Made by a program: the position numbers and the translations under genes. 23,335 nt of DNA from a virus. Location: positions 1 through 23,335 of IMG/VR virus record IMGVR_UViG_3300017971_000775; one strand, given 5' to 3'. Shown here one piece after another: positions 9,040 to 23,335 of the stretch. Each line of letters starts with the position of its first letter. Within the stretch, counting starts at the first letter, position 1. The notes below the pieces were generated by a model, which worked only from the letters and a program-made list of their open reading frames with translations, made no database searches and was not told the DNA's origin.

Positions 9040-9764
9040 GAAAATATCCCAAATGACTCTAATGCGAAGTCGCCATATTTATTCATTAGAATATTATCTG
9101 TCCATATTGCCATATCAACATCATTTGCAACTTTGAGGTTTTCTTTCATTTCTTGATATGCGGCTTCAGCTGTTGGGCTCCAATTTGCTGATGGGTACAC
9201 ATCTTTTAGTTCACGAGCTAAAGCATATCGTAAGAATCTAAAATAGTAAGGAGGCACTTCGTCTAGATTGTCGTATAGCTCCACATGGTCTAACATAAAC
9301 TTAGCTCTTACATGACATTCATATTGAAATGATGGAACCGGATAGAATTTTAATTTAGTTAATAAGTCATCTTTCATTAACATGACGTATCCAGGACGGC
9401 TTTTTAAGTCAAATAGCCTCGTATTATTAAGAACGTCGGAACGCTTAACAATTCTTACTGGATAAGAGATAGAGTCTCTAATAATATTTACATAATCTAG
9501 CTCAACTATTCGTTCAGCTTCTATATCAGCTGGAATAACATTTGAGATGGTATATTCATCCTGACCATCAACCATATTAAAGACTAATTCTCTAATGAAT
9601 GGTATAAAAATTCCTAGCGATGAAAAGTGATCGAATAAATCGTTAAGGTAATAAAGTCCTTCCGTTATTTGAGATCCCGACGGCGTTTCATCTGGGGAGA
9701 ACTCACCAATAAGATAGAAAGCTTTAACAATGATATCATTTGCTGTTCTGGGTGTTTGCGGCAT
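9036..9764 (-). CDS. P22 gp4-like tail accessory factor (portal-proximal adaptor)
   Basis: The 242-residue protein starts MPQTPRTANDIIVKAFYLIG. Its features (ANDIIVKAFYLIGEFSPDET, then EGLYYLNDLFDHFSS, a central FNMVDGQDEYTI and late helix RYALARELKDVYPS) match the head-to-tail adaptor proteins of the gp4/gp6-like class. These form the ring between portal and tail hub. It is longer than P22 gp4 (166 aa). P22 gp4 also has a muramidase activity, but I see no catalytic motif to claim that here. The gene overlaps the end of the AT-hook gene by 29 bases and the gp10-like gene by four. Confidence 0.8.
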   Translation of the reverse strand: MPQTPRTANDIIVKAFYLIGEFSPDETPSGSQITEGLYYLNDLFDHFSSLGIFIPFIRELVFNMVDGQDEYTISNVIPADIEAERIVELDYVNIIRDSISYPVRIVKRSDVLNNTRLFDLKSRPGYVMLMKDDLLTKLKFYPVPSFQYECHVRAKFMLDHVELYDNLDEVPPYYFRFLRYALARELKDVYPSANWSPTAEAAYQEMKENLKVANDVDMAIWTDNILMNKYGDFALESFGIFS

Positions 9765-10116
9765 TATCCGATACCTTTATTTTGGGTGGTCTACCGCGCC
9801 TTTTCTTGGGGCGCGGTATCTCACTAGATTCAGCATTAATTACTTCATCTTTTTTTTGCTTTTCGTCCAAGCTGTTCCCGTCTTTTTTGGAGTTGATGGT
9901 ATTGGCATCTTTCCTGGAGGCGGTGTTAACTTGTTCGTATTTGGGTTCTTCTCTTTTGATTCGTAAGCCATTTTTCTTCTCCTCATCAGTATGATAAATA
10001 GTTTTGTCATACCACTTGCCGGTATCTAATAATTGCTGCGCATGATCGCGTGAGCAAATCTTATAGACACCGGCAAAGTGCATAACCTTATAAAGCTTTT
10101 TAGGGCTATAACTCAT
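9736..10116 (-). CDS. AT-hook protein of the head gene cluster
   Basis: The 126-residue product starts MSYSPKKLYKVMHFAGVYKI. Residues 1-45 look like a small fold ending in KICSRDHAQQLLDTGKWYDK. Residues 46-100 are a charged, low-complexity linker. Residues about 103-114 read PKKRRGRPPKIK, a classic AT-hook core (R-G-R-P flanked by basic residues) that binds the minor groove of AT-rich DNA. The gene lies directly after the coat gene (two-base gap). An AT-hook on a head protein could contact packaged DNA or host DNA; this is an inference. No family name can be given for the N-terminal part. Confidence 0.75.
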   Translation of the reverse strand: MSYSPKKLYKVMHFAGVYKICSRDHAQQLLDTGKWYDKTIYHTDEEKKNGLRIKREEPKYEQVNTASRKDANTINSKKDGNSLDEKQKKDEVINAESSEIPRPKKRRGRPPKIKVSDNAANTQNSK

Positions 10117-10117
10117 A

Positions 10118-11350
10118 TTAAGAAACTAACTTAGTTGCGTATTGACCATGCCACTTCCAACCACAAAGAGCATCTAAACGCATAACGTTAACGTCATTTA
10201 ATATGTCACCTTGGAAACTTACACGCAAAGATACATTTGTATCTGGACTTGTTTTGATGTAAGTGCGATTCACGTCAATAGTTTCAAGAGGTGGAACAAC
10301 TAAATCCAATCCGCGTTTTGCGTACGCCAAGTTAACGTTATAAGTAACAGGAGTTCCAGGAACTGTAACACCAAGAATAGAAACGGCTGCCCCATCTAAA
10401 ATTGGGCTAGTTACATTTCTACGAGCATCTGCTAAATCGCTAACAATACTTGGGCTTACAGTAATAGTTACGTTACCGCCGACGTCTGCGCTAGCATCAG
10501 CTAACACAACGAATTGCATTAATTGACCTGTATCTGCGCGACCAACTGGATTAACCGAATTCGATCCTGCAAACGTAACAACATCACCAGCTCTGAATAC
10601 ATTAGCTGCGGAAGGTGTGGCGCCATCAAGAACAATTGTATTTCCAGAATTAACTTGTCCGTTGACAACAACAGTTCCAGCCAAACTACCGGTTGTATGA
10701 CGAGCAATAGATTGATTTTGGAAAATGTCGAAATAAGACAGATGTCCTAATTGTGATTTAAAGGAAATATCATCATTCAAGGTATCATTGAATGCATTTT
10801 GCAAAGATGCTTTTAAAGCAGATGCATCACGCACAGATAACCCCATATAAGCGTTGTCTAAAATTGGCATCGCTTGTTCAAGCATTTTAGCGCCAGCTAA
10901 ATCAACTGCTGCAAATGAGTTGACGGGAGTTCCTGGTGTTCCAGTTGCAAAGTTAACTTGTTGAACGCCGTCTAAAGCAATTTGAGTTTCCATCTGCTTA
11001 ACAATTTCTTGCACAGCTGGCTCAATATATCTTTCTGAAAATCTTTCTAAACCGTTATCAACCTCAAGAGTAAGTTCTTTTGAATTGTATTCGGTAAGGA
11101 CGTGATATTGATGCTCAACAACTAATGGTGTGGTTTCTTCATCAACGTCTTGTATTGCTCCAATTCGACCATCGCCAACCGTAAAATGGTTTTGACGACG
11201 AATATTAACGGTATCGCCAATGCGATATTCTTGCATTTTAAAATCACTTTCATAACCGCGATTAGCAGTCATAACAAATGAGTTATTGTTTTCAAATTTA
11301 GCCAAGGCAATATTTGCCACTAGCTCGGTAACACTAAATTGATTAGCCAT
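10118..11350 (-). CDS. Major coat protein, P22 gp5-like
   Basis: The 410-residue protein starts MANQFSVTELVANIALAKFE and continues to VDNGLERFSERYIEPAVQEI. The opening (anchored Asn-rich helix, YRIGDTVNIRRQ, then L-T-x-E-V-D) is typical of the P22 coat family (HK97 fold with an extra insertion domain); P22 gp5 has 430 residues. Central Gly/Asn/Val-rich segments (TVVVNGQVNSGNTIVLDGAT) would form the inserted beta domain. A GAGGT site lies seven bases before the ATG. It follows the scaffold gene, as expected for co-assembly of the procapsid. Confidence 0.85.
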   Translation of the reverse strand: MANQFSVTELVANIALAKFENNNSFVMTANRGYESDFKMQEYRIGDTVNIRRQNHFTVGDGRIGAIQDVDEETTPLVVEHQYHVLTEYNSKELTLEVDNGLERFSERYIEPAVQEIVKQMETQIALDGVQQVNFATGTPGTPVNSFAAVDLAGAKMLEQAMPILDNAYMGLSVRDASALKASLQNAFNDTLNDDISFKSQLGHLSYFDIFQNQSIARHTTGSLAGTVVVNGQVNSGNTIVLDGATPSAANVFRAGDVVTFAGSNSVNPVGRADTGQLMQFVVLADASADVGGNVTITVSPSIVSDLADARRNVTSPILDGAAVSILGVTVPGTPVTYNVNLAYAKRGLDLVVPPLETIDVNRTYIKTSPDTNVSLRVSFQGDILNDVNVMRLDALCGWKWHGQYATKLVS

Positions 11351-11372
11351 GTTTTATACCTCAAAAAATAAG

Positions 11373-12254
11373 TTATCGTTTTCGACGGCTTCGTTCTTTT
11401 TCTTTATAGTAAGCTCTCAAATCTTTTGGATTCTGAGCCACCCTAGAAAATGAATTCATGGGCTTTTGACCCACCGTCTCCCCTACTGGTTGTACCGGAG
11501 CTGGCGCACTTGATATCGTTGGCTTGCTAGCTAACTTAAATGCGTGCTTCACAACTTCCGCTTGTTGTTGCCGAGGATGTAATTTAGAAATGCGCTGGAC
11601 TTCTTTAGGATTTTTGGCCAAATAATAGAGTAAATCAGCTCCATTAGGAGATACTTTCGCTACTCCTAGCATAGATTCACTTAAAGGCAAGTTATCATTT
11701 CGCACTACGTCGTCGAAGTCTTCATATTTGCTAGCAGCTTCATCAATGGAATCAAAAAATCTTTCTTCCTGCAGCTGCTCGTAATATTTGTCTTCTCTCC
11801 GTTGTTGCTCTTGAGACGCTTGATACGCATACTGTTCTTTTTGTTGATTAAAAAGAGCAGCCCCATATCTAGGGTCACTTGGGTCAAGATATTGCCCAGT
11901 AAATGGGTCAATCACTTGTCCTGGTTGAGCAGATGGCGCTTGCTGAGCTTGCGGTGTTTCATATCCTGCTTGAGGATATTGAGCACCTTGACTCAACTGT
12001 TGAACTTGCGCTTTTAGATCAGCTATTTCTTGCTGAACTCTCTTATTTTTTCTTTCAATCCTACGTTTTGCATATTCAGGGTTATCATTAGTTTCAGTTG
12101 AAGCTTCTGAACTATTCGGATTTTCCGAACTGTTCGAAACACTTGTAGACTCAGCTTCCATATGGCTGGATTCTTGAGCTACAGGCTCACTACTAACTTC
12201 ACTAACAGGAGCAGCTTCCACTGCATCTGAACTTTGCATTGCTTCATCACTCAT
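11373..12254 (-). CDS. Scaffolding protein
   Basis: The 293-residue product starts MSDEAMQSSDAVEAAPVSEV at ATG 12254, with AGGA about seven bases upstream; an in-frame TTG six bases earlier is less likely. The N-terminal third is acidic and Ser/Glu-rich, the middle is Gln-rich (KAQVQQLSQGAQYPQAGYET) with a coiled-coil helix, and the C-terminus is strongly basic (YKEKERSRRKR). In P22 gp8 a basic C-terminal helix-turn-helix binds the coat protein, and here too the C-terminus is charged and basic. Length is close to gp8 (303 aa), and the place between portal and coat is diagnostic. Confidence 0.85.
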   Translation of the reverse strand: MSDEAMQSSDAVEAAPVSEVSSEPVAQESSHMEAESTSVSNSSENPNSSEASTETNDNPEYAKRRIERKNKRVQQEIADLKAQVQQLSQGAQYPQAGYETPQAQQAPSAQPGQVIDPFTGQYLDPSDPRYGAALFNQQKEQYAYQASQEQQRREDKYYEQLQEERFFDSIDEAASKYEDFDDVVRNDNLPLSESMLGVAKVSPNGADLLYYLAKNPKEVQRISKLHPRQQQAEVVKHAFKLASKPTISSAPAPVQPVGETVGQKPMNSFSRVAQNPKDLRAYYKEKERSRRKR

Positions 12255-12322
12255 AATCAATCCTCATATTTTTTAAAGGTTAAAATAAAACCACTCGTAT
12301 AAACGGACGCTTTAAGGTGCGC

Positions 12323-14440
12323 TTACCTCTCGCTTTCGCGGTCGAAACCCATTAAACTCTGCGCAGTCGCGCTATTGTGTTTAGCAATGTTGCTATGTGC
12401 GCTCATAATCTTTGACATAGCATTAGCTACATCTCCCTCGTATCCAAGCTGAGCTTTACTTATTTCGGCTCCAGTCTTCATACGGTTCATCTGTTGATCG
12501 TTTTGCAATTTCATCATTTCTAATTCTGTTTTTGCGGCATCTATTTGTTGTTGCTGCTGCGCTTGCTGTGCTTGCAATTGTTGTTCTTGCTGTTTAAGTT
12601 GAAGTTCAGCCTGCTTTAGTTGCATCTCTTGTTGAGCCATCATCATTTGTGGATTAGGTTGAGGTGGTGGGGGTGGCTGACCTTCCTCTTTTGCTAAGAT
12701 ATCTTTTGGAACTAACGTCTTAAATCTCTCAACTAATTGTGGGTTATTTTCCACATCAATGTTTTCAGCTATTAAATCTGCAACCAATGGGAACGTTTGA
12801 GGGTTAATCTTAGCCATTTCCACTAGGATTTGAAGCGCATTTTCTCGTTGAACAGCAAAGCTTGGGCCGCTTTCAATGACGACATCATATTCGCCGCCCT
12901 TCAAGTTATTCTGTACTCCACCGGCTACTTGCTGATTAACTGTTATGTCTCTATCTTTTCCATTCTGAGTTTGGATGCTTACTTTTCTTTCAGTATCGTA
13001 GATTTCAGGCAATAAAGACAAGATAACGCGACCTGTTTGCTCAATACATCTATCTAAGTTGTCCATATAAACAGCTACTGACATATTCCCTGTGCGTTGG
13101 CGCTCTTTCAAAGCTACCCCAGATAGCTCTTGACCTTGAGCTCCGCGATTAGCTTCGTAGTAACCAAGAACGCTCTGTATATCCATCTCCGCACGTTTGT
13201 ATTGCTCTAGTAAAGTGGTTGGAACCTCAGAGGCTGGAAGTCTTGTTGGAAGTTGTTTTGTAATTGGATCAGGTTTAGCTAATAAAATACCTTGCTGAAC
13301 GGATGGATTGCGCCACATATCAATCAACCCTTGGCCGCTCATGTTGTCAGGAGTTCCAATAAACTGTTCTCTGCGGCTATTTTTTATAGCTTGAGCAATT
13401 TCACTTCCGCAATAGTTAAGGAATCGTTGCGCATCTCTAACATAGCGAACAAAAGATATGGTTCGCTCTTCGGCATCTACAACATGAACTGCACCAGGAC
13501 AAAATATAATTGGGAAATGTTTTGACGGCCATTTATATTTTTCTAGAATCTTTCCATAGACAGCTTTGTAACACATTATTCGATAGTCGCTAGATTTTCT
13601 GCTAGATATGATTTCAGGAAGAATTATTTGCTGATCGATTCCGCTAACATCTTCCATCTCAACCATTTCTTCATAACGAACTTTTATTTCTCTATATTCT
13701 TTATCGGTAACAGTTTTGCCATTGTCTAATTTGTGTAATGTGAACGTATACCATTCTTTTTTGTAATACTCGACGACGCTTATGGTATCTTTTGTCCCCC
13801 ATTTAAACTCTTGTATTTGTGATTGTTCTGGGAACGACTCAGGATAGGGAACATCTGGATATTCTCTTTTGAACTCTTTTCGATCGCGAATGTCGTAATA
13901 TCCGCAAAATTCCCCATCATGCTTCGTAGCTTCTTTAGCATTTGGATCGAAGAATACACGCTCTGGATTCTCTATTCTTCTAAGGAATATATGTTGATCA
14001 AACGACTTTGGCGTCTCATAGTCAACCATGATGCGTAATGCGCCGAAACCACCGGCTAGCGCATTTTCAAAAGCGGTTTGATAAACAATATCTGATTTAG
14101 AATCGTATGCTATTTTACGTACAATATCAGTGCGCAGGTCAATAGCTTGTTGATCTGATTCTCCATTAAGACTTCGTACTTTAAGGTTTGGTGTGTTATA
14201 TCTTTGCTCTCCAACTACCTTCTTAAAGAAGTCATATATTTTGTTGAAGGTGAGCATGGGCTTCTGAAGTCGGTTGAATTCAGACCTGTCAGTTTGATCC
14301 CATTGAGATAAAAATAAGAAATTCTTATCTTCTCGCATGAACTTCAAATTTTCGGTATAGCTTTCGTACCAGCGTCCGACGTTCTTTGATATTTCTTCGA
14401 GTAGATCTATTTCTTTTTCAGACGAACTTTTGCGCGCCAT
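12323..14440 (-). CDS. Portal protein, P22 gp1-like
   Basis: The 705-residue product has the size of P22 gp1 (725). It starts MARKSSSEKEIDLLEEISKN, with WYESYTENLKFMREDKNFLF early on, a pattern typical of the P22 portal family. The stem/clip part includes SFVRYVRDAQRFLNYCGSEI and a region with GVALKERQRTGN. The C-terminal 100 residues form a very Gln-rich helix (QMMMAQQEMQLKQAELQLKQ), which would build the long barrel seen in P22. I see no clear ribosome site before the ATG at 14440, which is unusual for so important a gene; the start is supported by the absence of other ATGs. Confidence 0.9.
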   Translation of the reverse strand: MARKSSSEKEIDLLEEISKNVGRWYESYTENLKFMREDKNFLFLSQWDQTDRSEFNRLQKPMLTFNKIYDFFKKVVGEQRYNTPNLKVRSLNGESDQQAIDLRTDIVRKIAYDSKSDIVYQTAFENALAGGFGALRIMVDYETPKSFDQHIFLRRIENPERVFFDPNAKEATKHDGEFCGYYDIRDRKEFKREYPDVPYPESFPEQSQIQEFKWGTKDTISVVEYYKKEWYTFTLHKLDNGKTVTDKEYREIKVRYEEMVEMEDVSGIDQQIILPEIISSRKSSDYRIMCYKAVYGKILEKYKWPSKHFPIIFCPGAVHVVDAEERTISFVRYVRDAQRFLNYCGSEIAQAIKNSRREQFIGTPDNMSGQGLIDMWRNPSVQQGILLAKPDPITKQLPTRLPASEVPTTLLEQYKRAEMDIQSVLGYYEANRGAQGQELSGVALKERQRTGNMSVAVYMDNLDRCIEQTGRVILSLLPEIYDTERKVSIQTQNGKDRDITVNQQVAGGVQNNLKGGEYDVVIESGPSFAVQRENALQILVEMAKINPQTFPLVADLIAENIDVENNPQLVERFKTLVPKDILAKEEGQPPPPPQPNPQMMMAQQEMQLKQAELQLKQQEQQLQAQQAQQQQQIDAAKTELEMMKLQNDQQMNRMKTGAEISKAQLGYEGDVANAMSKIMSAHSNIAKHNSATAQSLMGFDRESER

Positions 14441-14506
14441 AGATATTTAAAATCATTAAGTTTGGAGGGACTTAATAACATTAAAAGATAGAATCTGATA
14501 GAGGGG

Positions 14507-16015
14507 TCAGATTTTAATAGAGGGATTAAGTAATCTTTTAATATTTACGCTATTATCTACACAAGGGAATGCAAATGTCAAGGCTAAAGCATCAGCTTCA
14601 TCAGGACTTCTATGTCTTTTTTTAATCTCATCTTTCTTTTCAAGCAAAATACGTGTATTTGAATCATAACTATATGCTGGAGAGCATAAATCTTCGTGCA
14701 GAGATTCTTCATCAGGGATAGAGCATGGCTCATCTTCTAACCACGCTTTCATTTCACCCCACATTTCAGCGCGAACATTTCTATATCTTTCGGCATTGTA
14801 TGGGGTTGCGCCTGCATTTATTCCCTTCACGGTATCAACATGACCAAGCTCTCTTAATCTATCGACAATACCGGCTCCAATTCCAATAACATCCACGAGA
14901 ACCTTGTCCGGATTTTCTTCTTTTATTAGCTTAGTTATTATTCCAACAGTTTTCATGGTATCGCTTTCATTAAAGCTTTGTAATTTATAAGCGACTCTTC
15001 CATGTCTAAATATAATTGATGTTCTATCTTTTCCTGGGCCAGCTGGATCAACGCCCATAAACTTTGTTCCATAAGGCTTATTGTAATCACTCTGCCTAGC
15101 CTTCACTACAGAATTCGATGGAATAAATGAGTCTCCACTTGTGCTTTGGAACGCTTCCACAGGCGTACATGGATATTCTTGCATAAATGCTTTGTCACCC
15201 ATCATTCCTTTAGACGTAAGTTCTTTTATCTTCTTACGACGCCATACCAATTGTTCGTTTGATAGTTTATATATCTTACGTAGCTCATCCTCTTCTGGAG
15301 TTATTTTAAATCCGTCAGGTACTGTCTCCTTATATTCTTGTTGCCAAAACCAAGGAATAAATATAGGAATGTAGTCTGAATCTTTTTGGAGAGAAGCTTT
15401 CCATTGTTCGTGAAAATAATTTCCGAGACCGTGAGCTGTTGATTCAAGTATAATTTCGGTGCCTTTCTCACCTGGAACAGCTTGAAGAATTCCCTTTGCG
15501 TGGTCATCAGCATTCGGCCAAAATGCAACTTCGGAACCGTGGAATAATTGCAATGTGCTAGAGCGGCCAACGCCTCGTGTTCCAGCTGTTCCAACCTTAT
15601 AACCTGAATCTAAGTTAGGAAAGTCTAGCTCTTTAGCATTCTGCGTTCCAACGATAGGTCGGAACATCTCAGGGCAATTTTCATGGTACCTCTGGGACAT
15701 TTCAAATAGATTGTTGGTTGCTTCTTGGTCGTGAGTAAGGATGAATGCGCGCAGACCTTGATTGTGTGTAACCTTCCAATAGAATCGGCCCTCAACGTAA
15801 GTAGAGCATCCTTGCTGCCGACCTTTGAGTATGACGGCTCTTACTTTCCCTGTTTTCTTATATTGTTCTTCTAATTTCTCGTGAATATATCGCTGCGCAC
15901 TATTAAGAATGAATGGAATTACTTTACCACTTTTTAACCTAATCTTTAGGCATGACCTTGCATAATAGTGGAAATCTTCTTTTAATTTAAGTCTTATTTC
16001 ATCTTCGGTTGGCAT
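14507..16015 (-). CDS. terL: Terminase large subunit
   Basis: The 502-residue ATPase-nuclease packages DNA through the portal. Walker A is GRQQGCST (65-72), the Walker B end is IILES (188-192) followed by coupling motif TAHG. The nuclease domain has MGVDPAGPGKDRTS (catalytic Asp323), VLVDVIGIGAG (Asp375) and SPDEADALALTF (Asp472/Asp475). These are the expected three acidic sites of the RNase H-like fold. Length is near P22 gp2 (499). The ATG at 16015 forms TAATG with the upstream membrane-protein gene. The small subunit lies nearly 4 kb away rather than next to it. Confidence 0.95.
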   Translation of the reverse strand: MPTEDEIRLKLKEDFHYYARSCLKIRLKSGKVIPFILNSAQRYIHEKLEEQYKKTGKVRAVILKGRQQGCSTYVEGRFYWKVTHNQGLRAFILTHDQEATNNLFEMSQRYHENCPEMFRPIVGTQNAKELDFPNLDSGYKVGTAGTRGVGRSSTLQLFHGSEVAFWPNADDHAKGILQAVPGEKGTEIILESTAHGLGNYFHEQWKASLQKDSDYIPIFIPWFWQQEYKETVPDGFKITPEEDELRKIYKLSNEQLVWRRKKIKELTSKGMMGDKAFMQEYPCTPVEAFQSTSGDSFIPSNSVVKARQSDYNKPYGTKFMGVDPAGPGKDRTSIIFRHGRVAYKLQSFNESDTMKTVGIITKLIKEENPDKVLVDVIGIGAGIVDRLRELGHVDTVKGINAGATPYNAERYRNVRAEMWGEMKAWLEDEPCSIPDEESLHEDLCSPAYSYDSNTRILLEKKDEIKKRHRSPDEADALALTFAFPCVDNSVNIKRLLNPSIKI

Positions 16016-16257
16016 TAAAAATCGTCTACCACATTAATTGCTATTAGAAATCCAACAAATAAAATCATAAGAGGAATTCCTATTCCTCCGCCATAGATGA
16101 CTGCATAGACAATCAAAACTTTGGCCATCACAGCAGCTCCGCCCGTTCCAATTCCAATTAAGTCAATCATCCATGGAAGCATCATACCCCAAAAGAAGTA
16201 GCCAACTGCTGCACTTAAAAACAGTGCGCACCCCATTACCGATAAAAATGCTTTCAT
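16015..16257 (-). CDS. Small membrane protein, possible holin
   Basis: Starting at ATG 16257 the product is 80 residues (MKAFLSVMGCALFLSAAVGY). A start at 16284 would add nine residues, but its ATG lies inside a perfect hairpin and has no good ribosome site, whereas GGA precedes the later ATG. There are two hydrophobic segments (about 3-30 and 45-75), the second with many Gly/Val/Ile. Size and two-membrane-span layout fit a class II holin, and no other lysis gene is visible, but this is only a suggestion. It is coupled to the large terminase by TAATG. Confidence 0.6.
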   Translation of the reverse strand: MKAFLSVMGCALFLSAAVGYFFWGMMLPWMIDLIGIGTGGAAVMAKVLIVYAVIYGGGIGIPLMILFVGFLIAINVVDDF

Positions 16258-16282
16258 TATGTTATTCCAATAAGAGTTGCAC

Positions 16283-16301
16283 ATGAAGACATGATCTTCA
16301 T
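16283..16301 (-). other. Perfect 7-bp RNA hairpin over an upstream start codon
   Basis: In minus-strand RNA AUGAAGA and UCUUCAU pair perfectly around the loop UCAUG. The stem directly follows the stop of the 16302-16514 gene and covers the upstream candidate start (16284) of the membrane-protein gene. No U-run follows, so it is not an intrinsic terminator. It could favour use of the downstream start at 16257. Confidence 0.4.
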
Positions 16302-16514
16302 TTATTGTCTCCGATTAGTGAATGGGTAAGGAATGCTAGAAAAACTATCTCTATATTTAGTGGCTTCCTCTTCCCCATGTTTTTCTTTAATATTGCTAAC
16401 TACTTTATTAAAGCTTCGGCTAACAGCTCTGAAAAACATTAATTCCATAGTTTCTTCATTCAGACAATTTGGATCCGTATTTTTACTTTTGCCATATGCT
16501 ATTGTTCTTGGCAT
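16302..16514 (-). CDS. Small phage protein of unknown function
   Basis: The 70-residue product starts MPRTIAYGKSKNTDPNCLNE and is mostly helical and charged in the middle (FFRAVSRSFNKVVSNIKEKH). There is no membrane segment. Its ATG is four bases after the stop of the 16519-16761 gene. I do not recognise a family. It belongs to the small-gene block between the terminase genes. Confidence 0.6.
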   Translation of the reverse strand: MPRTIAYGKSKNTDPNCLNEETMELMFFRAVSRSFNKVVSNIKEKHGEEEATKYRDSFSSIPYPFTNRRQ

Positions 16515-16518
16515 TCTT

Positions 16519-16761
16519 TTATCTCACTATATCGGATGGAATTAAATTCTGATACCCACAATTCACGCATTTTATTTCACACATTCCACCCTCTGAATTC
16601 TCAGTAACACTGAAAGAATGGTCGCCCTTCAAACACCTAGAAGCAGTCGCCTCACGTTTGCTTTTTGCTTCTTCCCGGGATTTCTCGGTTATCATATCGA
16701 TCAACTGATAAACCCAAAATATAATGGCGCCAACACCAACAATCATACCTAAAGCAATCAT
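16519..16761 (-). CDS. Membrane-anchored Cys-pair protein
   Basis: The 80-residue product starts MIALGMIVGVGAIIFWVYQL with one membrane segment at residues 2-20. A basic linker (KSREEAKSKREA) follows, then a small Cys domain: Cys at about 43, a His in GDHSF, Cys at about 61, and KCVNCGY at about 65-70. This could be a zinc ribbon held at the inner side of the membrane. It shares ATGA with the stop of the 16758-16952 gene. Function unknown. Confidence 0.6.
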   Translation of the reverse strand: MIALGMIVGVGAIIFWVYQLIDMITEKSREEAKSKREATASRCLKGDHSFSVTENSEGGMCEIKCVNCGYQNLIPSDIVR

Positions 16762-16952
16762 TTATCTTTAAATCCTAAGCACTTAGTCCCGCATATCTTG
16801 CATTTAAGCCAATCGTAGACTTTATCATATGATCCATCTTTTCGATAGTCGTGATGTCCCGTCTTGCAATTAGGCTTAAAAGAATCATCGCGCTTCTTTC
16901 TTAATTTACGCTTAAATAATCTATCTTTATCTGTAAAAAAATCATCCTTCAT
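16758..16952 (-). CDS. Small basic CxxC protein
   Basis: The 64-residue product starts MKDDFFTDKDRLFKRKLRKK. The C-terminal half has a Cys/His pattern (CKTGHHDYRKDG, then LKCKICGTKC), which looks like a zinc-ribbon-like knuckle with an H-H-D-Y in the same place as the H-S-F of the next gene. The two neighbours may therefore be distant relatives (C-x(3)-[DH]-H then C-x2-C); this is inferred from a short pattern. It overlaps the 16942-17160 gene by 11 bases. Confidence 0.6.
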   Translation of the reverse strand: MKDDFFTDKDRLFKRKLRKKRDDSFKPNCKTGHHDYRKDGSYDKVYDWLKCKICGTKCLGFKDK

Positions 16953-17160
16953 TCTTTACCTCCTCACATACTGATTGAGCCCACGATAATGCACCAGGAG
17001 AAAGAAGCCAATCAATATTTGGCGCAAGATGGAAGCTCCCATTAAGTCCATGCACCTGCGGCGGAAGCTCGGAAAGCTTCAATATTGGCGCAGGCTTCTT
17101 AAATACCCTCTCCCTCGCTATGTGAAAATCATCTTCCATCTGTTGTAAGTTCATAAACAT
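16942..17160 (-). CDS. Small phage protein of unknown function
   Basis: The product is 72 residues from ATG 17160 (MFMNLQQMEDDFHIARERVF), or 70 from the ATG at 17154, which has GGTG at a better distance. It contains HGLNGSFHLAPNIDWLLSPG in the centre, mixed charge, and no membrane span. It overlaps the end of the 17129-17644 gene by 32 bases, so it relies on coupled translation. No family recognised. Confidence 0.55.
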   Translation of the reverse strand: MFMNLQQMEDDFHIARERVFKKPAPILKLSELPPQVHGLNGSFHLAPNIDWLLSPGALSWAQSVCEEVKNEG

Positions 17161-17644
17161 TCACCATTTTCTTAAAATTTTCGAGAGTTGTTTCGGGTAG
17201 CATTTCATCAAATGTGCTTCCATGATAATGTGCTAACCAAAATCCACGATCGTTTATTGTTTCAACTGACTCATCTTTACCTAGTCGATTGGGAATCATC
17301 CAGTAGTTACTTTCCCAATAAACTTTCTTAATCTCATATGGCAAACAATCCATATCCTCATGATATTCATATGGTGGCCCAGCATTATGCTCATATGGCG
17401 CATCGTCCCAATCATCACCCCATTGAAGTTTTACATCTTGCGTAGTAAACCAAGCTTGATTGTCTAAGACTAGGCATAGCTTGAAATGTTTATCCATCAA
17501 TTTTCCACGGCCGCATTTGCAAAATTTTATGTTAGTCAAATCTATATCTATTTCACTAGTCAGCCCTAAATTCCCTCTCATTTTCTCCCCACAAGGTTCT
17601 GTATACTTCTTTGTAAAATAATCTTGATTTTCTTCATCAGTCAT
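17129..17644 (-). CDS. Acidic phage protein with Cys cluster, unknown
   Basis: The 171-residue product starts MTDEENQDYFTKKYTEPCGE. Residues about 42-57 read CKCGRGKLMDKHFKLC, a possible metal site. The rest is acidic and rich in Trp, Tyr and Asp (WGDDWDDAPYEHNAGPPYEY). It is among the larger proteins of the block between the terminase genes. The start overlaps the previous stop by ATGA. No known family could be assigned from reading. Confidence 0.6.
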   Translation of the reverse strand: MTDEENQDYFTKKYTEPCGEKMRGNLGLTSEIDIDLTNIKFCKCGRGKLMDKHFKLCLVLDNQAWFTTQDVKLQWGDDWDDAPYEHNAGPPYEYHEDMDCLPYEIKKVYWESNYWMIPNRLGKDESVETINDRGFWLAHYHGSTFDEMLPETTLENFKKMVNVYELTTDGR

Positions 17645-17928
17645 TTCTTTTTCCTGTAATAACTAACGTTTCCCCAGCAATCACTGATTCCACTTGCAAT
17701 ATCTTCTCCTTTTTTATCAAAAAACGTTATGCATTCTGAATGCGGCTCTCCAGTTATTTTAACAGTGTGCACATCATCCACATCAATTATTGAATCAGGA
17801 GCAGGTGGGTATTCAGTGCAATCTAACCTATTTGATAAAAATATATTACTTTTTGCTGTTTGTGGTTTTACCAACCAACACACAATAAAGCCACAAATAA
17901 ACCAAACGAATCCAGCTAAATAAATCAT
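17641..17928 (-). CDS. Membrane-anchored small protein, unknown
   Basis: The 95-residue product starts MIYLAGFVWFICGFIVCWLV, one N-terminal membrane span (2-20). The remaining 70 residues are a soluble domain (VKITGEPHSECITFFDKKGE, then GISDCWGNVSYYRK) with three Cys. N-terminal anchoring with a soluble tail recurs in several neighbours. The start shares ATGA with the stop of the 17925-18338 gene. Confidence 0.6.
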   Translation of the reverse strand: MIYLAGFVWFICGFIVCWLVKPQTAKSNIFLSNRLDCTEYPPAPDSIIDVDDVHTVKITGEPHSECITFFDKKGEDIASGISDCWGNVSYYRKKK

Positions 17929-18338
17929 TTCTTTATCTCCAAAGTTTCACTAGTTGCTCTATTTATCTTCATGTTTTTTCCTTCCAGCATGATTTCTAGT
18001 AATTTATAAATATGCATATCAGTACATTCTATAGGGCCAACATACGCCCCACCTTCAACTGGGCTCCACCTACTATATTTCCACCCATTGAAATTCTTGT
18101 TGTCCGCTCCATCAATCTCACAAATACTTCCATCTTTATTTACTGCAACCCGAACAAGCAAAGGAGATCGATCGGGTTCATTTACGATTTCATTTTCTAT
18201 ATAGAGCACCTTATCTTTAAATTTATAATAATCACCTATTTTTCTTTCAATGCTATTAATTCGGCTGCGAGTCATAAGGACCAACACAAACACAGCAAAA
18301 GGGAATGCCGCACTTAATATATTTATAATTTCATTCAT
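17925..18338 (-). CDS. Membrane-anchored protein, unknown
   Basis: The 137-residue product starts MNEIINILSAAFPFAVFVLV with a membrane span at about 5-22, then a basic helix (SRINSIERKIGDYYKFKDKV) and a beta-rich domain with WKYSRWSPVEGGAYVGP. It ends with a helical charged tail. No family recognised. The start lies four bases downstream of the 18343-18582 stop, in the same compact series. Confidence 0.6.
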   Translation of the reverse strand: MNEIINILSAAFPFAVFVLVLMTRSRINSIERKIGDYYKFKDKVLYIENEIVNEPDRSPLLVRVAVNKDGSICEIDGADNKNFNGWKYSRWSPVEGGAYVGPIECTDMHIYKLLEIMLEGKNMKINRATSETLEIKK

Positions 18339-18342
18339 TTCT

Positions 18343-18582
18343 TTACCTCGTAGTCATAACTGCTATTGAATGCACTTCATCTTCGCGCGGATGCCTTCCG
18401 AATATATATTTAACTCCATCTTCTTCTGATTCTCTGATGCTCAAATCTTTAAATCTTTTTATCAATGGAAGTTCTAAAGCATCTTTTTCCGCTTCAACAA
18501 CAGCTTCCCACGCCTCTTCAAGGCGATATGTTGGAGCAATCCTACCATCTGAAACGCCATATGCATTTTGAACTCTGATCAT
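18343..18582 (-). CDS. Small phage protein of unknown function
   Basis: The 79-residue product starts MIRVQNAYGVSDGRIAPTYR. A long acidic helix follows (LEEAWEAVVEAEKDALELPL), then a short beta part ending in HSIAVMTTR. No membrane span or Cys. It shares ATGA with the stop of the 18579-18818 gene, which supports it as translated. Function unknown. Confidence 0.6.
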   Translation of the reverse strand: MIRVQNAYGVSDGRIAPTYRLEEAWEAVVEAEKDALELPLIKRFKDLSIRESEEDGVKYIFGRHPREDEVHSIAVMTTR

Positions 18583-18818
18583 TTCTCACCCTCTAGCTTA
18601 ATAACTTTCGTTTTTACCAACCAATCAAGTTGTTCTTTAACTTCCATCTTAATGGCGCAGTTCATCTCTCCAAGTAAATTGAGCCTCAGATCTATTTCTT
18701 TGTTGAACTCAATGGATGTCTTATCTTTCCTACTGCGCTCCCACTCCTCCATAATTCTGTTAAGTTCCTCACTAAAGGTTTCTCGCTTCTTTTTTCTAAA
18801 TAAATTTGAGATTCTCAT
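18579..18818 (-). CDS. Small charged helical protein, unknown
   Basis: The 79-residue product starts MRISNLFRKKKRETFSEELN and is nearly all helix with alternating charge (RIMEEWERSRKDKTSIEFNK, then DLRLNLLGEMN). A coiled-coil or small adaptor is plausible. Its ATG overlaps the stop of the 18815-18970 microprotein by ATGA, so the two are coupled. No family recognised. Confidence 0.6.
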   Translation of the reverse strand: MRISNLFRKKKRETFSEELNRIMEEWERSRKDKTSIEFNKEIDLRLNLLGEMNCAIKMEVKEQLDWLVKTKVIKLEGEK

Positions 18819-18970
18819 ATTTTCATCCCCCTACCTATAGGTGGATCAAAACTTAAAATAACAATAACTTGCACTAATATTGGAAGCCACACATGAAACC
18901 ATGATATCGCAATCCACCCCATAAACTTTAGGATAACCAATACTAAAAATATAACAAAACAAATACTCAT
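18815..18970 (-). CDS. 51-residue hydrophobic membrane protein
   Basis: The product starts MSICFVIFLVLVILKFMGWI and continues AISWFHVWLPILVQVIVILS, giving two hydrophobic spans of about 17-20 residues, with tail FDPPIGRGMKI. AGGAG stands before the ATG at 18970 with good spacing. Its TGA overlaps the next ATG. This makes a good case for a real gene although it is short. A holin-like or membrane accessory role is possible but unproven. Confidence 0.65.
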   Translation of the reverse strand: MSICFVIFLVLVILKFMGWIAISWFHVWLPILVQVIVILSFDPPIGRGMKI

Positions 18971-18982
18971 ATTTACATTCTC

Positions 18983-19240
18983 CTAATCTTTCAAATCAAT
19001 CAAATATGCAAATGGCCTATACTTGCCATCACTAACTTTACATATAGCATAGTGTTGGCCATCATCTTCAACATTATCTAACGGAACAAACTCTATCTCA
19101 TCATTTCTAGTGAATCCAAGATGGTCTTTGATATCCTTACGACTCTTAAACGATTCTTTAAGCTCATCCTCAGCATAAGTTTTAGATGAATTTATCTTGC
19201 CGAATCCTTCGAATGGATTATGTATGAATTTATAGGTCAT
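18983..19240 (-). CDS. Small phage protein of unknown function
   Basis: The 85-residue product starts MTYKFIHNPFEGFGKINSSK. A charged helical middle (YAEDELKESFKSRKDIKDHL) is followed by beta strands (EIEFVPLDNVEDDGQHYAIC) ending in FAYLIDLKD. The layout resembles a small alpha/beta domain. It shares ATGA with the previous gene's stop. No family recognised. Confidence 0.6.
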   Translation of the reverse strand: MTYKFIHNPFEGFGKINSSKTYAEDELKESFKSRKDIKDHLGFTRNDEIEFVPLDNVEDDGQHYAICKVSDGKYRPFAYLIDLKD

Positions 19241-19518
19241 TTTTCATCCCAGCTGAGCGCTAATTTCTTTCGAATTTCTTTCAAATGATTTATCTTAGCT
19301 TCTGAGTACTTGTCGTTCCACATGCGGTTAACGGTTGCCTTTGTCTCCTGAAAATTAATCGCCTGATAAAGCATTTTTTTTTCAAACTCTTTATCTGCTT
19401 TTTTCATATCTCTTTTTGGTTTACCAATCAATGCCTCGTATGAAAGCTTTGAAATTACAATTAAAAAGCATAAACACACCATAAACCCACCAAAGTTACT
19501 CCAGTCGATGTTATTCAT
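19237..19518 (-). CDS. Membrane-anchored helical protein, unknown
   Basis: The 93-residue product starts MNNIDWSNFGGFMVCLCFLI with one membrane span at about 10-28. A basic helical tail follows (KPKRDMKKADKEFEKKMLYQ) and continues helical to the end. Layout (N-out or N-in span plus long helix) recalls inner-membrane spanins, but there is no outer partner I can identify. It shares ATGA with the 19515-19712 gene. Confidence 0.6.
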   Translation of the reverse strand: MNNIDWSNFGGFMVCLCFLIVISKLSYEALIGKPKRDMKKADKEFEKKMLYQAINFQETKATVNRMWNDKYSEAKINHLKEIRKKLALSWDEK

Positions 19519-19712
19519 TCTTCACCCCCAAAGTTTCTAATAACCAATGACACTATCCCAACAACACTTAGCGGTAACCATATTGGCAGCGTTAACGCTA
19601 ATGGAGACAAATCAAATACGCCCCTATACTGCATTGCACACAACAACGCAGTTAATATGCAGCATAAGAACATAAATGCTGTGAAACTAATCTGATCGTT
19701 TTGTTTATTCAT
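19515..19712 (-). CDS. Two-span small membrane protein, unknown
   Basis: The 65-residue product starts MNKQNDQISFTAFMFLCCIL. Spans are at about 8-26 and 34-57 (LTLPIWLPLSVVGIVSLVIR) with a short loop. A charged FGGEE end follows. Like 16015-16257 it could be a holin by size and topology; there are at least three such candidates, so no single one can be called. Confidence 0.6.
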   Translation of the reverse strand: MNKQNDQISFTAFMFLCCILTALLCAMQYRGVFDLSPLALTLPIWLPLSVVGIVSLVIRNFGGEE

Positions 19713-19714
19713 CT

Positions 19715-19819
19715 TTACATCCCCATTCTTCTAATTGCTTTAACATTCCAATTAAGATATTCCATCGCCTGAATAATGCTAGATAGTTTTAGCTCGCACA
19801 TAGCGGATTCATCAATCAT
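19715..19819 (-). CDS. 34-residue candidate microprotein
   Basis: An ATG at 19819 overlaps the end of the small terminase gene by eight bases, and the frame runs MIDESAMCELKLSSIIQAME, then YLNWNVKAIRRMGM, ending two bases before the next ATG. It would be an amphipathic helix. The tight fit favours translation, but the length is short and no ribosome site is obvious, so it may only be a spacer. Confidence 0.4.
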   Translation of the reverse strand: MIDESAMCELKLSSIIQAMEYLNWNVKAIRRMGM

Positions 19820-20252
19820 CATCGTATAACTCCGCTAATCTCTTCAATTCTTCTTCATGAGTTTTAACATTCACTTCCATTTTATCGGTGAACATCTGCA
19901 AATGTTTTCCTAACAGCTCCAATGATTTGTTAGCGCCATTAGCATTGAATTTATAAACGCCTGTTTCATTTCCGTCTTTATCAAGTACCGGCTCATTCTG
20001 CATGCATCTCTCAACTATATCTTTTAAATTAGTTAGCACATAATCATTAGTAATATTTGTTCTTTCTGACCTCATTTTATTTGCCTCTTTTATAGCTTCG
20101 TAAACGTTAGCATATGTTAGCAGCCGTGACCCTATCTCTTTAGCCGCAGCAGAGCTATACCCAGCCCGTATTGATGCCTGGGAAGCATTCCCATCTTTGA
20201 TATATTCTTGCACAAAGCGCTCTTGCTTAATTGTTAGTTTCTTGCTCACCAT
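19812..20252 (-). CDS. terS: Terminase small subunit
   Basis: The 146-residue product starts MVSKKLTIKQERFVQEYIKD and has the N-terminal helix-turn-helix pattern of the Terminase_2 small-subunit family (N-A-S-Q-A-S-I-R-A-G-Y, then EIGSRLL). The middle has an oligomerising helix (VLTNLKDIVERCM), and the C-terminus is a coiled, charged helix that would contact the large subunit. It recognises the packaging start on the phage DNA. Its ATG directly follows the stop of the 20253-20582 gene. About 3.8 kb of small genes separate it from the large subunit. Confidence 0.9.
   Translation of the reverse strand: MVSKKLTIKQERFVQEYIKDGNASQASIRAGYSSAAAKEIGSRLLTYANVYEAIKEANKMRSERTNITNDYVLTNLKDIVERCMQNEPVLDKDGNETGVYKFNANGANKSLELLGKHLQMFTDKMEVNVKTHEEELKRLAELYDDD
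20220..20241. repeat. 22-bp imperfect direct repeat, copy 1 (in terS start)
   Basis: CTCTTGCTTAATTGTTAGTT plus TC recurs at 20590-20611 with two changes (20/22 identical). This copy encodes residues 4-11 of the small terminase. The two copies are 370 bp apart and bracket the signal-peptide gene. Confidence 0.6.
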
Positions 20253-20582
20253 CTAAATCCAGCCATTAATTTCAAAAACTATAAACCCACCTACCACCAG
20301 CGCTACTGCCAAAAGAATCGCACTCCAAAAGTTCTCCCACCAACTGTTATTATCATATTTCTTCTTCAACTTTAGAAGGCACACTCTTTGCATTTCTCTT
20401 GTTTCTAATTTATTACATAATGCTATCTCAAGAGATGCATATTTAGCATCTTGAATATCTTGTTCAGCTCCAGCAGCCATAGCCATTGCGCCTGCTGATA
20501 ATGCAAGTGAGCCAGCATCTGCGAATGCAACACCAGGCACAGGAATCAATAAAATTAAAATTAAAATCAGTTTTCTATACAT
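20253..20582 (-). CDS. Secreted/membrane small protein with signal peptide
   Basis: The 109-residue product starts MYRKLILILILLIPVPGVAF with AFADA at the end of a hydrophobic segment, a good type I signal peptide (cleavage after about residue 22). Residues 25-45 are Ala/Gly/Ser-rich, the middle has two Cys (ALCNKLETREMQRVCLLKLK), possibly a disulfide, and a C-terminal span follows at about 86-106 (NFWSAILLAVALVVGGFIVF). A periplasmic protein anchored at its C-terminus would result. A spanin- or exclusion-type role is possible, not shown. It lies between two near-identical 22-bp repeats. Confidence 0.65.
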   Translation of the reverse strand: MYRKLILILILLIPVPGVAFADAGSLALSAGAMAMAAGAEQDIQDAKYASLEIALCNKLETREMQRVCLLKLKKKYDNNSWWENFWSAILLAVALVVGGFIVFEINGWI

Positions 20583-20589
20583 TGTTTTT

Positions 20590-20611
20590 CTCTTGTTTAA
20601 TTGTTAGCTTC
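20590..20611. repeat. 22-bp imperfect direct repeat, copy 2
   Basis: CTCTTGTTTAATTGTTAGCT plus TC matches 20220-20241 with two changes, both C/T. This copy covers the stop of the 20597-20926 gene and the short gap after it. Confidence 0.6.
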
Positions 20612-20926
20612 GCGCTCTTTAACCATCGAATTGTATAGATGTACTTCATTATTAAGACTTCTATCCATAAATTTTATTTTTTCCTCACATTCTTTTGAGC
20701 AATACTCCTTGTATTTATCAAAAATTAATTCTAAATTATCCATAGAAAACTCCAGTGAGTTGCTGTCATCAAAATAATCCTTCCTATAACATCTTCCCGC
20801 ATCATACTTAACACCAGAAGATGAAATGATGATTTTCCTAATCATGCCTACATCAATATAAGATACTTCTTCGAACCTATAATAAATAACAATATCACCT
20901 ACATTAAATTTATGTTTCACTCTCAT
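20597..20926 (-). CDS. KFNVGD-domain protein, paralogue of the 21108-21446 gene
   Basis: I start at ATG 20926 (MRVKHKFNVGDIVIYYRFEE, 109 residues). A longer frame to 20986 would run through a strong RNA stem and have no ribosome site, whereas AGGAG (20932-20928) lies just before 20926; a GTG at 20920 has even better spacing. Residues about 6-40 (KFNVGDIVIYY, then V-x-x-I, S-S-G-V-K-Y) resemble the neighbour's KFNVGDKIIYTFQW and S-A-E-G-V-K-I-Y. Such G-D-x-[IV]-x-Y openings suit a small SH3-like beta barrel. The rest is a charged helical tail with Cys in YCSKECEEK. Confidence 0.65.
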   Translation of the reverse strand: MRVKHKFNVGDIVIYYRFEEVSYIDVGMIRKIIISSSGVKYDAGRCYRKDYFDDSNSLEFSMDNLELIFDKYKEYCSKECEEKIKFMDRSLNNEVHLYNSMVKEREANN

Positions 20927-20936
20927 TCTCCTAATA

Positions 20937-21095
20937 TCTAAATTAAGGACACCAACACAAATTATTAGCGAATCATTGCAAACCAAACCTTTCCGAAGTT
21001 AAGGTTACAAGCTGATGTCCTTAAGTTAAATAAAGGCGCTCACTACTAAAATAATAATTCCTTCCCGAACATTATGCTAAAGCAGTAAGCGCCTT
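20937..21095 (-). ncRNA. Structured RNA element between two paralogous genes
   Basis: In minus-strand RNA, 21095-21084 pairs with 21044-21033 over 12 bp (AAGGCGCUUACU with AGUGAGCGCCUU, one U.G). Then 21030-21011 pairs with 20956-20937 over 19 of 20 positions with three G.U pairs and one C.U mismatch. Inside the second stem a 6-bp hairpin (21006-21001 with 20991-20986) caps a loop with CUUCGG. The wobble pairs fit RNA from this strand only. The second stem ends four bases before the AGGAG of the 20597-20926 gene, so it may control its translation. A long loop and lack of U-run argue against a terminator. Confidence 0.6.
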
Positions 21096-21107
21096 GTTCA
21101 TTACCAT

Positions 21108-21446
21108 CTATCTTTTACAAAAACAGCATGTGCACGGTGGCTCAGGCATCATTACTTCTTGGCAGTTATCACAATCACACCGCGTGTCTTTCAGCTCCTC
21201 ACAATATTCATCTTTAATCTCTTTTGAATTCTTCTTTATTTTGTCAATTAATTTTTGAGCAAACATATCAACGTTATTTCTGCATGCTGAGTCAACGTTT
21301 TGCTGCCACATAAAACCAGGCTCTTCATCATAAATCTTCACGCCCTCGGCTGATGCCTCAATTCTGCTTACTTCTCTGCATACAATTTCCCACTGAAAAG
21401 TGTATATAATCTTATCCCCAACATTAAACTTAATTTCTTCTGGCAT
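21108..21446 (-). CDS. KFNVGD-domain protein with Cys-rich C-terminus
   Basis: The 112-residue product starts MPEEIKFNVGDKIIYTFQWE with AGGAG before its ATG. The N-terminal 45 residues resemble those of the 20597-20926 protein. A helical middle follows (DMFAQKLIDKIKKNSKEIKD) and then a Cys cluster: CDCDNCQ and PPCTCCFCKR, with eight Cys in the last 28 residues, which suggests metal binding. The two genes are likely a local duplication that has diverged at the C-terminus. Function unknown. Confidence 0.65.
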   Translation of the reverse strand: MPEEIKFNVGDKIIYTFQWEIVCREVSRIEASAEGVKIYDEEPGFMWQQNVDSACRNNVDMFAQKLIDKIKKNSKEIKDEYCEELKDTRCDCDNCQEVMMPEPPCTCCFCKR

Positions 21447-21478
21447 AATTTTCTCCTAATAAAATTACAACTAACACG

Positions 21479-21496
21479 AGCATTAACTATAATGCT
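21479..21496 (-). other. Perfect 7-bp hairpin after a stop codon
   Basis: AGCATTA and TAATGCT pair perfectly around a four-base loop, starting about 12 bases after the stop of the 21509-21877 gene. No U-run follows, so it is not a standard terminator; it could protect or separate the mRNA. Confidence 0.35.
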
Positions 21497-21508
21497 TTAT
21501 CCTCATTT

Positions 21509-21877
21509 TTAATCTTTATGTCTACAGTGGTTCCTTACTACATTAAGGCAATCTGACACCAAAAAACCAACCCCACCCTCTCCAGGCAAAAAATCATCTG
21601 GGCGTCTTCGATAACTAGCGCAATTGTTATTACTAACGATCTCACATTCTTTTAAATAAATCTCGTGCTCTAATCTTCGTTGCTTTATAATCTCTTTCCA
21701 CTCCCTAAACTTCTTCTTATCTCTAACTACAGCCTTATCTTCTGAGCTATCATACTCAGCTATAACTTTATCTCCATCAAAGATTTGAATAAGATTAGTT
21801 TTCTTATACTTCAATCCTGCTGGCGGACGAGCATATAAATCTTGGATTATTTCTTTATTTGATAAATCTTTTTTCAT
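21509..21877 (-). CDS. First gene after the structured leader, unknown function
   Basis: The 122-residue product starts MKKDLSNKEIIQDLYARPPA with AGGAAAGG before the ATG. It has an N-terminal mixed region (YKKTNLIQIFDGDKVIAEYD), a long basic helix (KKFREWKEIIKQRRLEHEIY), and a Cys-containing tail (CASYRRRPDDFLPGEGGVGF, ending NVVRNHCRHKD). No family recognised. As the first open frame after the promoter and leader RNA, it would be the most 5' protein made from the transcript if the leader is read through. Confidence 0.7.
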   Translation of the reverse strand: MKKDLSNKEIIQDLYARPPAGLKYKKTNLIQIFDGDKVIAEYDSSEDKAVVRDKKKFREWKEIIKQRRLEHEIYLKECEIVSNNNCASYRRRPDDFLPGEGGVGFLVSDCLNVVRNHCRHKD

Positions 21878-21896
21878 ATTACCTTTCCTACAGGGT

Positions 21897-22299
21897 GGGG
21901 GCAGGACGCCGGTACCTAGCGTGGATTTTTAAAAGAGTCAAAAGGATTTACTAAATTTAAAATCGTTCGTCCAAAATACCTTAACCCCGCCTAAATATTC
22001 ATCTAGGCGTCCCTTCCCATCGAAAGCTAGAATATCCCGCGGAATACTCTAGCTACATCTCTAGGCTAACTCGTACTTTATTCGGAGCCATAGCCGCCCA
22101 TCAATGTTCTAACAAACCTATCTTAAAGACACCGAGTCCAATTCGCTGGAATTAGGCATGCATACATCTAAATAAGCCGCGATATTAACCCTTCAGAATA
22201 ATATACATTCTCAGTGCCTTTAAGATAGATTTAATTGGGGGACCGAAGCATCAATTAATAGAGGGCAATCAATGCTCCGGCACAACAAACTAACTATTA
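21897..22299 (-). ncRNA. Large structured RNA (leader or independent noncoding RNA)
   Basis: This stretch has no gene. Read as minus-strand RNA it folds into long stems. (1) 22280-22266 with 22257-22243: 15 bp, four G.U. (2) 22232-22210 with 22136-22114: 23 bp, three G.U, enclosing hairpins 22204-22199/22187-22182 and 22150-22146/22141-22137 (CGAA loop). (3) 22095-22091/22068-22064 plus 22088-22085/22072-22069. (4) 22053-22041/22038-22026: 12-13 bp, two G.U. (5) 22009-22001/21996-21988: 9 bp, one G.U. (6) weaker GGACG/CGUCC, 21972-21968/21908-21904, with outer GGGG/CCCC. Nearly all differences between arms are G.U-compatible, so the RNA, not the DNA, is paired. It begins just after a strong promoter. 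No known class could be recognised by reading. Confidence 0.75.
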
Positions 22300-22305
22300 A
22301 ATAAC

Positions 22306-22334
22306 ATAATATAACATTATTTCACTTATGTCAA
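22306..22334 (-). promoter_or_regulatory. Strong sigma70-type promoter
   Basis: On the minus strand a perfect TTGACA (22334-22329) is followed after 17 bases by TATTAT (22311-22306), one base off TATAAT, and TG precedes an overlapping TATATT. Transcription should start near 22299, about 20 bases before the first stem of the structured RNA. It is placed to serve the whole minus-strand gene block. Confidence 0.75.
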
Positions 22335-22355
22335 CATTATTTTAATCTTTTTTTA

Positions 22356-23105
22356 GATTCATTTCTGTAATGTGGTAATCTAAATACTCATGATTCATTT
22401 TATTCTTTCGGATATCTTAAGCCTCTTGATACATTCAGTAATCATGGTTATCTCCCTCTTCGTGATTCATTAACACCTATTGGTTATCTTAAGTTGATTG
22501 ATTCATTTTGTGTCTTTGATTATCTTCGTATGGATGATTCACTACCTGTTTCTGGTTATCTTTTATTCAACGGTTCATTTGCAATCATTGGTTATCTATA
22601 TTATATCGATTCATTTGCATTGATCGGCTATCTAGTTTTACCTGATTCACTTTACAATGCTGGTTATCTTGCATACACTGATACATTCACATCTTTTGGA
22701 TTCCTGTTCTTCTCTGATTCATTTGATACATTTTGTTTTCTTGGCTATCTTTTCGCAACTGATAATTTTTAATTCACTTTAGTATATATAATATATACCT
22801 AGTACTTATGATACATTTATATACCTCGGATATCATTTAATTCTGATACGTTAAACAAGTGTGGTTATTTTCTGTTTTGCGACTCATTTCAATAAACTGG
22901 TTACCTAAAACAGGATGATACATTTGATTTAGATGGTTATCTGTAACACATTGATTCATTTAAACACTCTGGGTATATTCATTTTATTGATACATTTATT
23001 TGTACTGGTTATCTTGCATTAGCTGATTAACTTCGGTCTCTTGGAAACCTTTCATTGATTGATGCATTAATTATTCCGGGTACCTGCCATAGAATGATTA
23101 CTTAC
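22356..23105 (+). repeat. 36-bp-period array of two alternating 9-bp boxes
   Basis: Box A (GATTCATTT and variants) and box B (GGTTATCTT and variants) alternate every 18 bp. A boxes start at 22356, 22392, 22428, 22464, 22500, 22536, 22572, 22608, 22644, 22680, 22716; then 22725 and 22761; then 22810, 22845, 22881, 22917, 22953, 22989, 23025, 23061 and a weak one at 23096. B boxes lie 18 bp after nearly every A. The spacers of about 9 bp are not alike. The phase slips by +9 at 22725 and is irregular at 22761-22845, then resumes. Read on the plus strand, boxes encode D-[ST]-[FL] and G-Y-L in one frame. Confidence 0.9.
22371..22772 (+). pseudogene. Open segment of a 12-residue-repeat protein, probably decayed
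   Basis: The frame is open for 133 codons on the plus strand, against the phage genes, and encodes repeats of D-[ST]-[FL]-x3-G-[YF]-L-x3, for example IDSFALIGYLVL. No ATG occurs before 22530; a TTG at 22494 and the ATG lack ribosome sites. The same repeat continues, after two small frame slips that cancel, through 22863-23085 with three TAA codons, and another TAA at 22368 precedes the segment. Third codon positions vary most in the boxes, which fits past selection on a protein. I judge it a remnant; an expressed short form cannot be excluded. Confidence 0.45.
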
Positions 23106-23325
23106 TTAGCTTACGTGGACTTAATCCTAATTCAGGTTTTGTTGTCACAGATTCTCTCGCGTATTCTTCGTATATGGTATTCAATTTACTTAATGCTTCA
23201 AAAAAACCCTTTAGCGGGGATTGTGGCGACAATAGCTCTCTATTTAACTCCTCTGCTGTGTAGATATCCTGATTAGGTTTATTTTCTGTATTCTCTGTCT
23301 TTGGTGATATAAAAAATCTAAACAT
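23098..23325 (-). CDS. Small protein of unknown function
   Basis: The 75-residue product starts MFRFFISPKTENTENKPNQD and continues IYTAEELNRELLSPQSPLKG, FFEALSKLNTIYEEYARESV. It looks like a normal small soluble helical protein with a disordered start and end. Only ten bases precede the ATG in the window, so the ribosome site is hard to judge. Its stop falls inside the last, weak unit of the 36-bp array. Overlapping plus-strand frames look less protein-like. Confidence 0.6.
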   Translation of the reverse strand: MFRFFISPKTENTENKPNQDIYTAEELNRELLSPQSPLKGFFEALSKLNTIYEEYARESVTTKPELGLSPRKLSK

Positions 23326-23335
23326 TTTACTTTTC

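Follow-up and report, generated by a model that had tools for sequence, protein, structure and literature searches.

Genomic context of the locus

The question raised by this locus is what a strongly folding stretch, here named RNA1, does ahead of the late genes of a virus. The window analysed was the whole of virus record IMGVR_UViG_3300017971_000775 (23,335 bases). All recognisable virion genes, i.e. those for the small and large terminase subunits, portal, major head protein, head closure, and tail fibre protein, are located on the minus strand. The first of these late genes encodes the terminase small subunit (19812-20252, minus strand; phrog_51, E 1.4e-37). The preliminary description had placed the RNA ahead of the late block, and the span in question indeed lies upstream of all recognisable virion genes. 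Genes for the small and large terminase subunits are usually adjacent; in the window, about a dozen small ORFs are located between them (16015-19712, minus strand).

The first gene after RNA1 is orf122 (21509-21877, minus strand). It has no known relatives, the single phage match being weak (E 0.2), and relatives of orf122 were not found as a route to homologues of RNA1. The next ORF, orf112 (21108-21446, minus strand), is a paralogue of the gene at 20597-20926 (minus strand), with which it shares 34% identity and the motif KFNVGD. The latter gene directly follows a second structured element, RNA2. Its start was set at ATG 20926 instead of the listed TTG 20986, since RNA2 overlaps the TTG version and the ATG fits the alignment with orf112 better. 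A structure model of orf112 was discarded as too poor for use (pLDDT 40.9).

Fold and extent of RNA1

The minus-strand transcript of positions 22310-21880 folds with a minimum free energy of -141.4 kcal/mol (z -4.53), and none of 100 shuffled sequences folded as well. The plus strand of the same stretch is unremarkable (z -1.25; 13 of 100 shuffles as good). Most of this stability resides in a core on the minus strand, 22285-21985, which reaches -120.8 kcal/mol and z -7.25. Judging by length, the span is non-coding: the longest stop-free stretches are 36 codons on the minus strand and 56 codons on the plus strand. To our knowledge, few phage RNAs fold as strongly as RNA1.

Five stems, spanning 22281-21988, make up the core, all on the minus strand. 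H1 (22281-22266/22257-22242; 16 bp, five G.U), the branched H2 (22233-22210/22136-22113; 24 bp, four G.U), and H4 (22054-22042/22037-22025; 13 bp, two G.U) each have a mean pair probability of 0.97-0.98. H5 (22009-22001/21996-21988) is a stem of 9 bp with one G.U and a mean pair probability of 0.88. H3 (22107-22055) comprises 17 bp with five G.U in several pieces, for which pair probabilities are 0.82-1.0. The five stems with at least ten G.U pairs that had been described earlier were thus recovered, with 17 G.U in total, except that H3 is interrupted. The extent originally given, about 400 nt at 21897-22299, applies in part. The core at 22281-21988 is highly structured, but 21987-21897 is only weakly so. 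In this 3' part of the leader (21897-21984, minus strand), which runs up to the gene start at 21877, pair probabilities are lower, and windows over the last ~90 nt gave z values of 1.2 and -0.8.

Promoter-like and terminator-like sites

A promoter-like sequence, TTGACA-17-TATTAT, is located at 22306-22334 on the minus strand and agrees with the consensus at 11 of 12 positions. Transcription from it would start near 22299, and H1 begins about 25 nt past this site. The window contains two sites of this quality, as compared to a mean of 1.0 in 20 shuffled sequences. Such sites therefore occur in about chance number, and the promoter sequence alone is no evidence, while its placement is good. Accordingly, what had been called a strong promoter directly upstream is better described as a well-placed 11/12 match. 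The other site of the same quality is located at 14581-14552 (minus strand), within the last part of the large terminase gene and upstream of that for the portal.

No terminator-like site was detected on the minus strand from 23335 to 17024. Over 3500-23335, such sites are at the shuffled level (15 versus 13.6). The leader continues to orf122, and no terminator-like site stops RNA1 or RNA2 short of the genes.

Strand bias of the stems

The G.U pairs had been taken as a sign that the minus-strand transcript is the functional form. As folding programs favour G.U, this was examined by an inverted-repeat search over the whole window in which G.U and A.C were weighted equally. The five inverted repeats within RNA1 and RNA2 contain 13 G.U and no A.C, versus 113 G.U and 121 A.C in the remaining 118 repeats (Fisher p 1.8e-4). 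This bias upholds the earlier argument and supports the upkeep of both elements as RNA; the form maintained is probably the minus-strand RNA.

A second element in the same operon

RNA2 (20930-21100, minus strand) consists of a 15-bp hairpin followed by a stem of 22 pairs with one mismatch (-58.2 kcal/mol, z -6.08). It is located 1.2 kb downstream of RNA1 in the same operon, between two paralogous genes. RNA1 precedes orf122 and RNA2 precedes the gene starting at 20926, both elements being on the coding strand of the late genes. Promoter-like matches near RNA2 reach 9 of 12 positions only, and none is clear. RNA2, as well as the repeat array described below, is an addition to what the preliminary description had reported.

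With G.U and A.C weighted equally, the two best inverted repeats of the window are H2 of RNA1 (22232-22114) and the closing stem of RNA2 (21032-20935). These stems are alike at 27 of 44 positions, which is rarely reached by shuffled stems (Monte Carlo p 0.0008-0.00165). Counted by pair, 10 are unchanged, six are changed on one side, five are changed on both sides, and one is broken. This count adds little to the similarity test, because paired changes will appear between any two stems of comparable composition. An alignment of the whole elements was not above chance (60 of 300 shuffles as good). The covariance model of RNA1 scored RNA2 at 10.1 bits (E 0.31), its best match after RNA1 and its own complement. 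RNA1 and RNA2 are likely akin, although this kinship is unproven.

The upstream TIGR array

TIGR arrays are defined by two alternating repeats of 8-12 nt, 9-nt spacers, and a unit of 36 nt (PMC12045711). The stretch at 22355-23068, upstream of RNA1, has this organisation: repeats AGATAACCA and AATGAATCA alternate with 9-nt spacers at a period of 36 nt. A degenerate stretch divides the array into two blocks, located at about 23068-22844 and 22750-22355. The two repeat patterns match 15 and 16 times, versus 0.10 and 0.06 matches expected.

A repeat scan showed that the same repeats flank a gene at locus L028, whose product matches TasH in the PDB (E 3.9e-99). It shares 49% identity with a Salicola phage CGphi29 protein, which is given as a TasH example by Faure et al. 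(2025; PMC12045711). The repeats of the array are also present beside a TasH relative in locus L122. A periodicity of 36 nt was seen in all nine loci from the TasH scan (L030 and L028 represent one contig, and next to TasH, L031 looks near-identical to L032). By its repeats, the stretch at 22355-23068 is identified as a TasH-type TIGR array. The repeats of the Salicola locus, taken along the tas gene strand, read AGACAACCA and AAGCGAGCCA by inspection; with this orientation as a guide, the array in the window reads on the minus strand, like the late genes. No Tas protein is encoded in the window (best tblastn E 0.43), and the contig ends 267 bases past the array. The identity of the array leaves RNA1 unexplained.

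Several further observations concern the array and its counterparts. A plus-strand frame of 92 codons (22494-22772) runs through the array in the opposite direction and would encode a repeat peptide, GYLxxxDSFxxx, so that a false annotation is possible. A repeat protein was rejected here because spacers elsewhere in the array contain in-frame stops, as seen by inspection. Self-targeting by the spacers was also rejected: 22 candidate sites with up to three mismatches were counted, versus 22-35 in ten shuffles. By inspection, the TasH relative and array of L122 (8905-10140, minus strand) directly follow a DNA polymerase I-like gene, and at L028 (1289-2536), TasH has arrays on both sides, next to terminase-subunit-like genes. 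In locus L033, TasH is followed, downstream of 3607, by a long TIGR array with well over ten units.

Searches for homologues

Two of the checks suggested in the preliminary description, a comparison with Rfam and a search for homologues, were carried out. No Rfam family matched at its gathering score; at E values up to 10, two snoRNA families appeared, far below their cut-offs. No homologue was found in sets of phage, plasmid, contig, and genome sequences. Namely, blastn of 22330-21880 gave no convincing match in 50,697 phage and 72,556 plasmid records, and blastn together with nhmmer revealed no convincing RNA1 homologue in the related loci. The same was true of folding scans of the noncoding stretches of six TerL/TerS relatives and of five of the nine TasH loci (best z in the latter, -4.3). 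The nearest terminase relatives are 59% identical and may be too distant for an RNA of this kind to be recognised by sequence.

The covariance model of RNA1 was run over the window and 89 of 121 loci (1.42 Mb; all except L001, L019-L028, and L039-L059) and matched only RNA1 and its own complement. It also gave no match in eight records and in 143 genomes from the order of the Legionella bin, empty answers that are uninformative without a known match. When viral contigs were scanned for a paired motif, 21 stretches were returned, about the chance number estimated by hand, none of which was convincing on folding. Four stretches were returned by a scan for a 17-base stem motif, none having the RNA1 fold by inspection. 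Literature searches for structured phage RNAs with a late promoter and leader RNA, and for HK022 put RNA and antitermination, yielded no paper.

Interpretation

RNA1 is a genuine orphan RNA with a strong fold; its operon also holds a likely relative, and a TIGR array lies beside it. Computation on the sequence shows two elements at defined positions, their folding, and the strand bias of their pairs. The explanation we prefer, although we hold it only tentatively, is that RNA1 is a structured leader that acts in cis on the late mRNA, has an internal relative in RNA2, and serves as a processing or stability element. Here, minus-strand transcription beginning near 22299 would place RNA1 at the 5' end of the late-operon mRNA as its leader, acting in cis, and RNA2 would be a related element between two genes of that operon. 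In both, a long near-perfect duplex (24 and 22 pairs, about two helical turns) would form upstream of a gene start. These duplexes may be substrates for RNase III or another double-strand RNase, or may shield the 5' end of the mRNA, and downstream cistrons would thereby gain stable ends of their own. Transcription from the promoter-like site, action in cis, and cutting or protection are what we infer. A duplex of about two helical turns suits RNase III, and both H2 (24 bp) and the RNA2 stem (22 pairs with one mismatch) are of this length. Stems H3-H5 count against processing, as they are superfluous to the role of an RNase III substrate.

Four other explanations were weighed against a leader of this kind. 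An antitermination or late-leader element, similar to put or to the leader of lambda pR', would modify the polymerase for read-through of the late operon. This is unlikely: the position of RNA1 agrees with it, as a promoter-like site immediately precedes the RNA and every recognisable late gene lies downstream, but no terminator-like site was detected on the minus strand from 23335 to 17024, such sites are at the shuffled level over most of the window, and RNA1 is much larger than put. A function tied to a promoter also fails to explain RNA2, which has only 9/12 promoter-like matches in its vicinity, whereas a function tied to preceding a gene does explain it; processing or stability is favoured for this reason. 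The large, multi-stem, and very stable fold with its branched H2, combined with a promoter-like site of its own, would suit a free-standing ornate RNA acting in trans in the style of GOLLD and ROOL. We consider this unlikely, given that no Rfam family matches, that no terminator-like site supplies a 3' end, and that no tRNA genes are present in the 23,335 bases of this possibly incomplete fragment.

RNA1 might instead be an accessory of the TIGR-Tas system that follows the array and helps to process or end the pre-tigRNA. The array immediately precedes RNA1 and shares its orientation, and no terminator-like site separates the two. Yet no comparably strong fold was seen in the five TasH loci folded, the covariance model matched in none of the nine, RNA2 is distant from the array, and RNA1 has its own promoter-like site; Faure et al. 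(PMC12045711) report no accessory RNA. Such a role is therefore improbable. Least probable of all is a DNA feature, i.e. decaying inverted repeats, such as those of a packaging or replication site or remnants of a mobile element. The strength of the inverted repeats and their location close to where the packaging genes begin would fit it, but decay without an RNA function predicts A.C as often as G.U, in conflict with the 13:0 observed. Beyond the processing or stability leader, one may speculate that an undescribed family of phage RNAs, reused within one late operon, has its first two members in RNA1 and RNA2, and that the copy beside the TIGR array couples guide-RNA production to late transcription, e.g. 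if it ended, processed, or protected the pre-tigRNA running into it; we regard this as quite unlikely.

Comparison with known systems

Resemblance to GOLLD and ROOL or to a put-type leader had been suggested earlier; kinship with GOLLD or ROOL is not supported, and put has no support beyond position. RNA1 is an elaborate phage RNA, like GOLLD and ROOL, but it is smaller and has no covariance-model match; by the Rfam models, it is neither of the two. GOLLD and ROOL are often found near tRNA islands (PMC12286853), while the window contains no tRNA. Like HK022 put, RNA1 is located behind a promoter-like site and has stem-loops at its 5' end. It differs in being about four times larger, in having a relative, RNA2, that lacks a clear promoter, and in that no terminators needing antitermination were found nearby.

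With TIGR-Tas (PMC12045711), the likeness is confined to the array, with its 36-nt units, two alternating 9-nt repeats, 9-nt spacers, and repeats matching TasH loci. The fragment has no tas gene, and RNA1 itself is no tigRNA. According to Faure et al. (PMC12045711), the processing enzyme and the biological role of TIGR systems are still open. With a TIGR array directly ahead of its late genes and a stable RNA between the two, this phage offers a concrete case for asking whether tigRNA production accompanies late-gene expression.

RNA1 matches no Rfam family, and a second, probably related element in the operon provides an approach to studying it that a lone orphan RNA would not. It differs from the structured leaders and RNase III sites of T7 and lambda in being larger and in having several stems. 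What it has in common with them is that the stems precede genes of the same orientation within a long phage operon.
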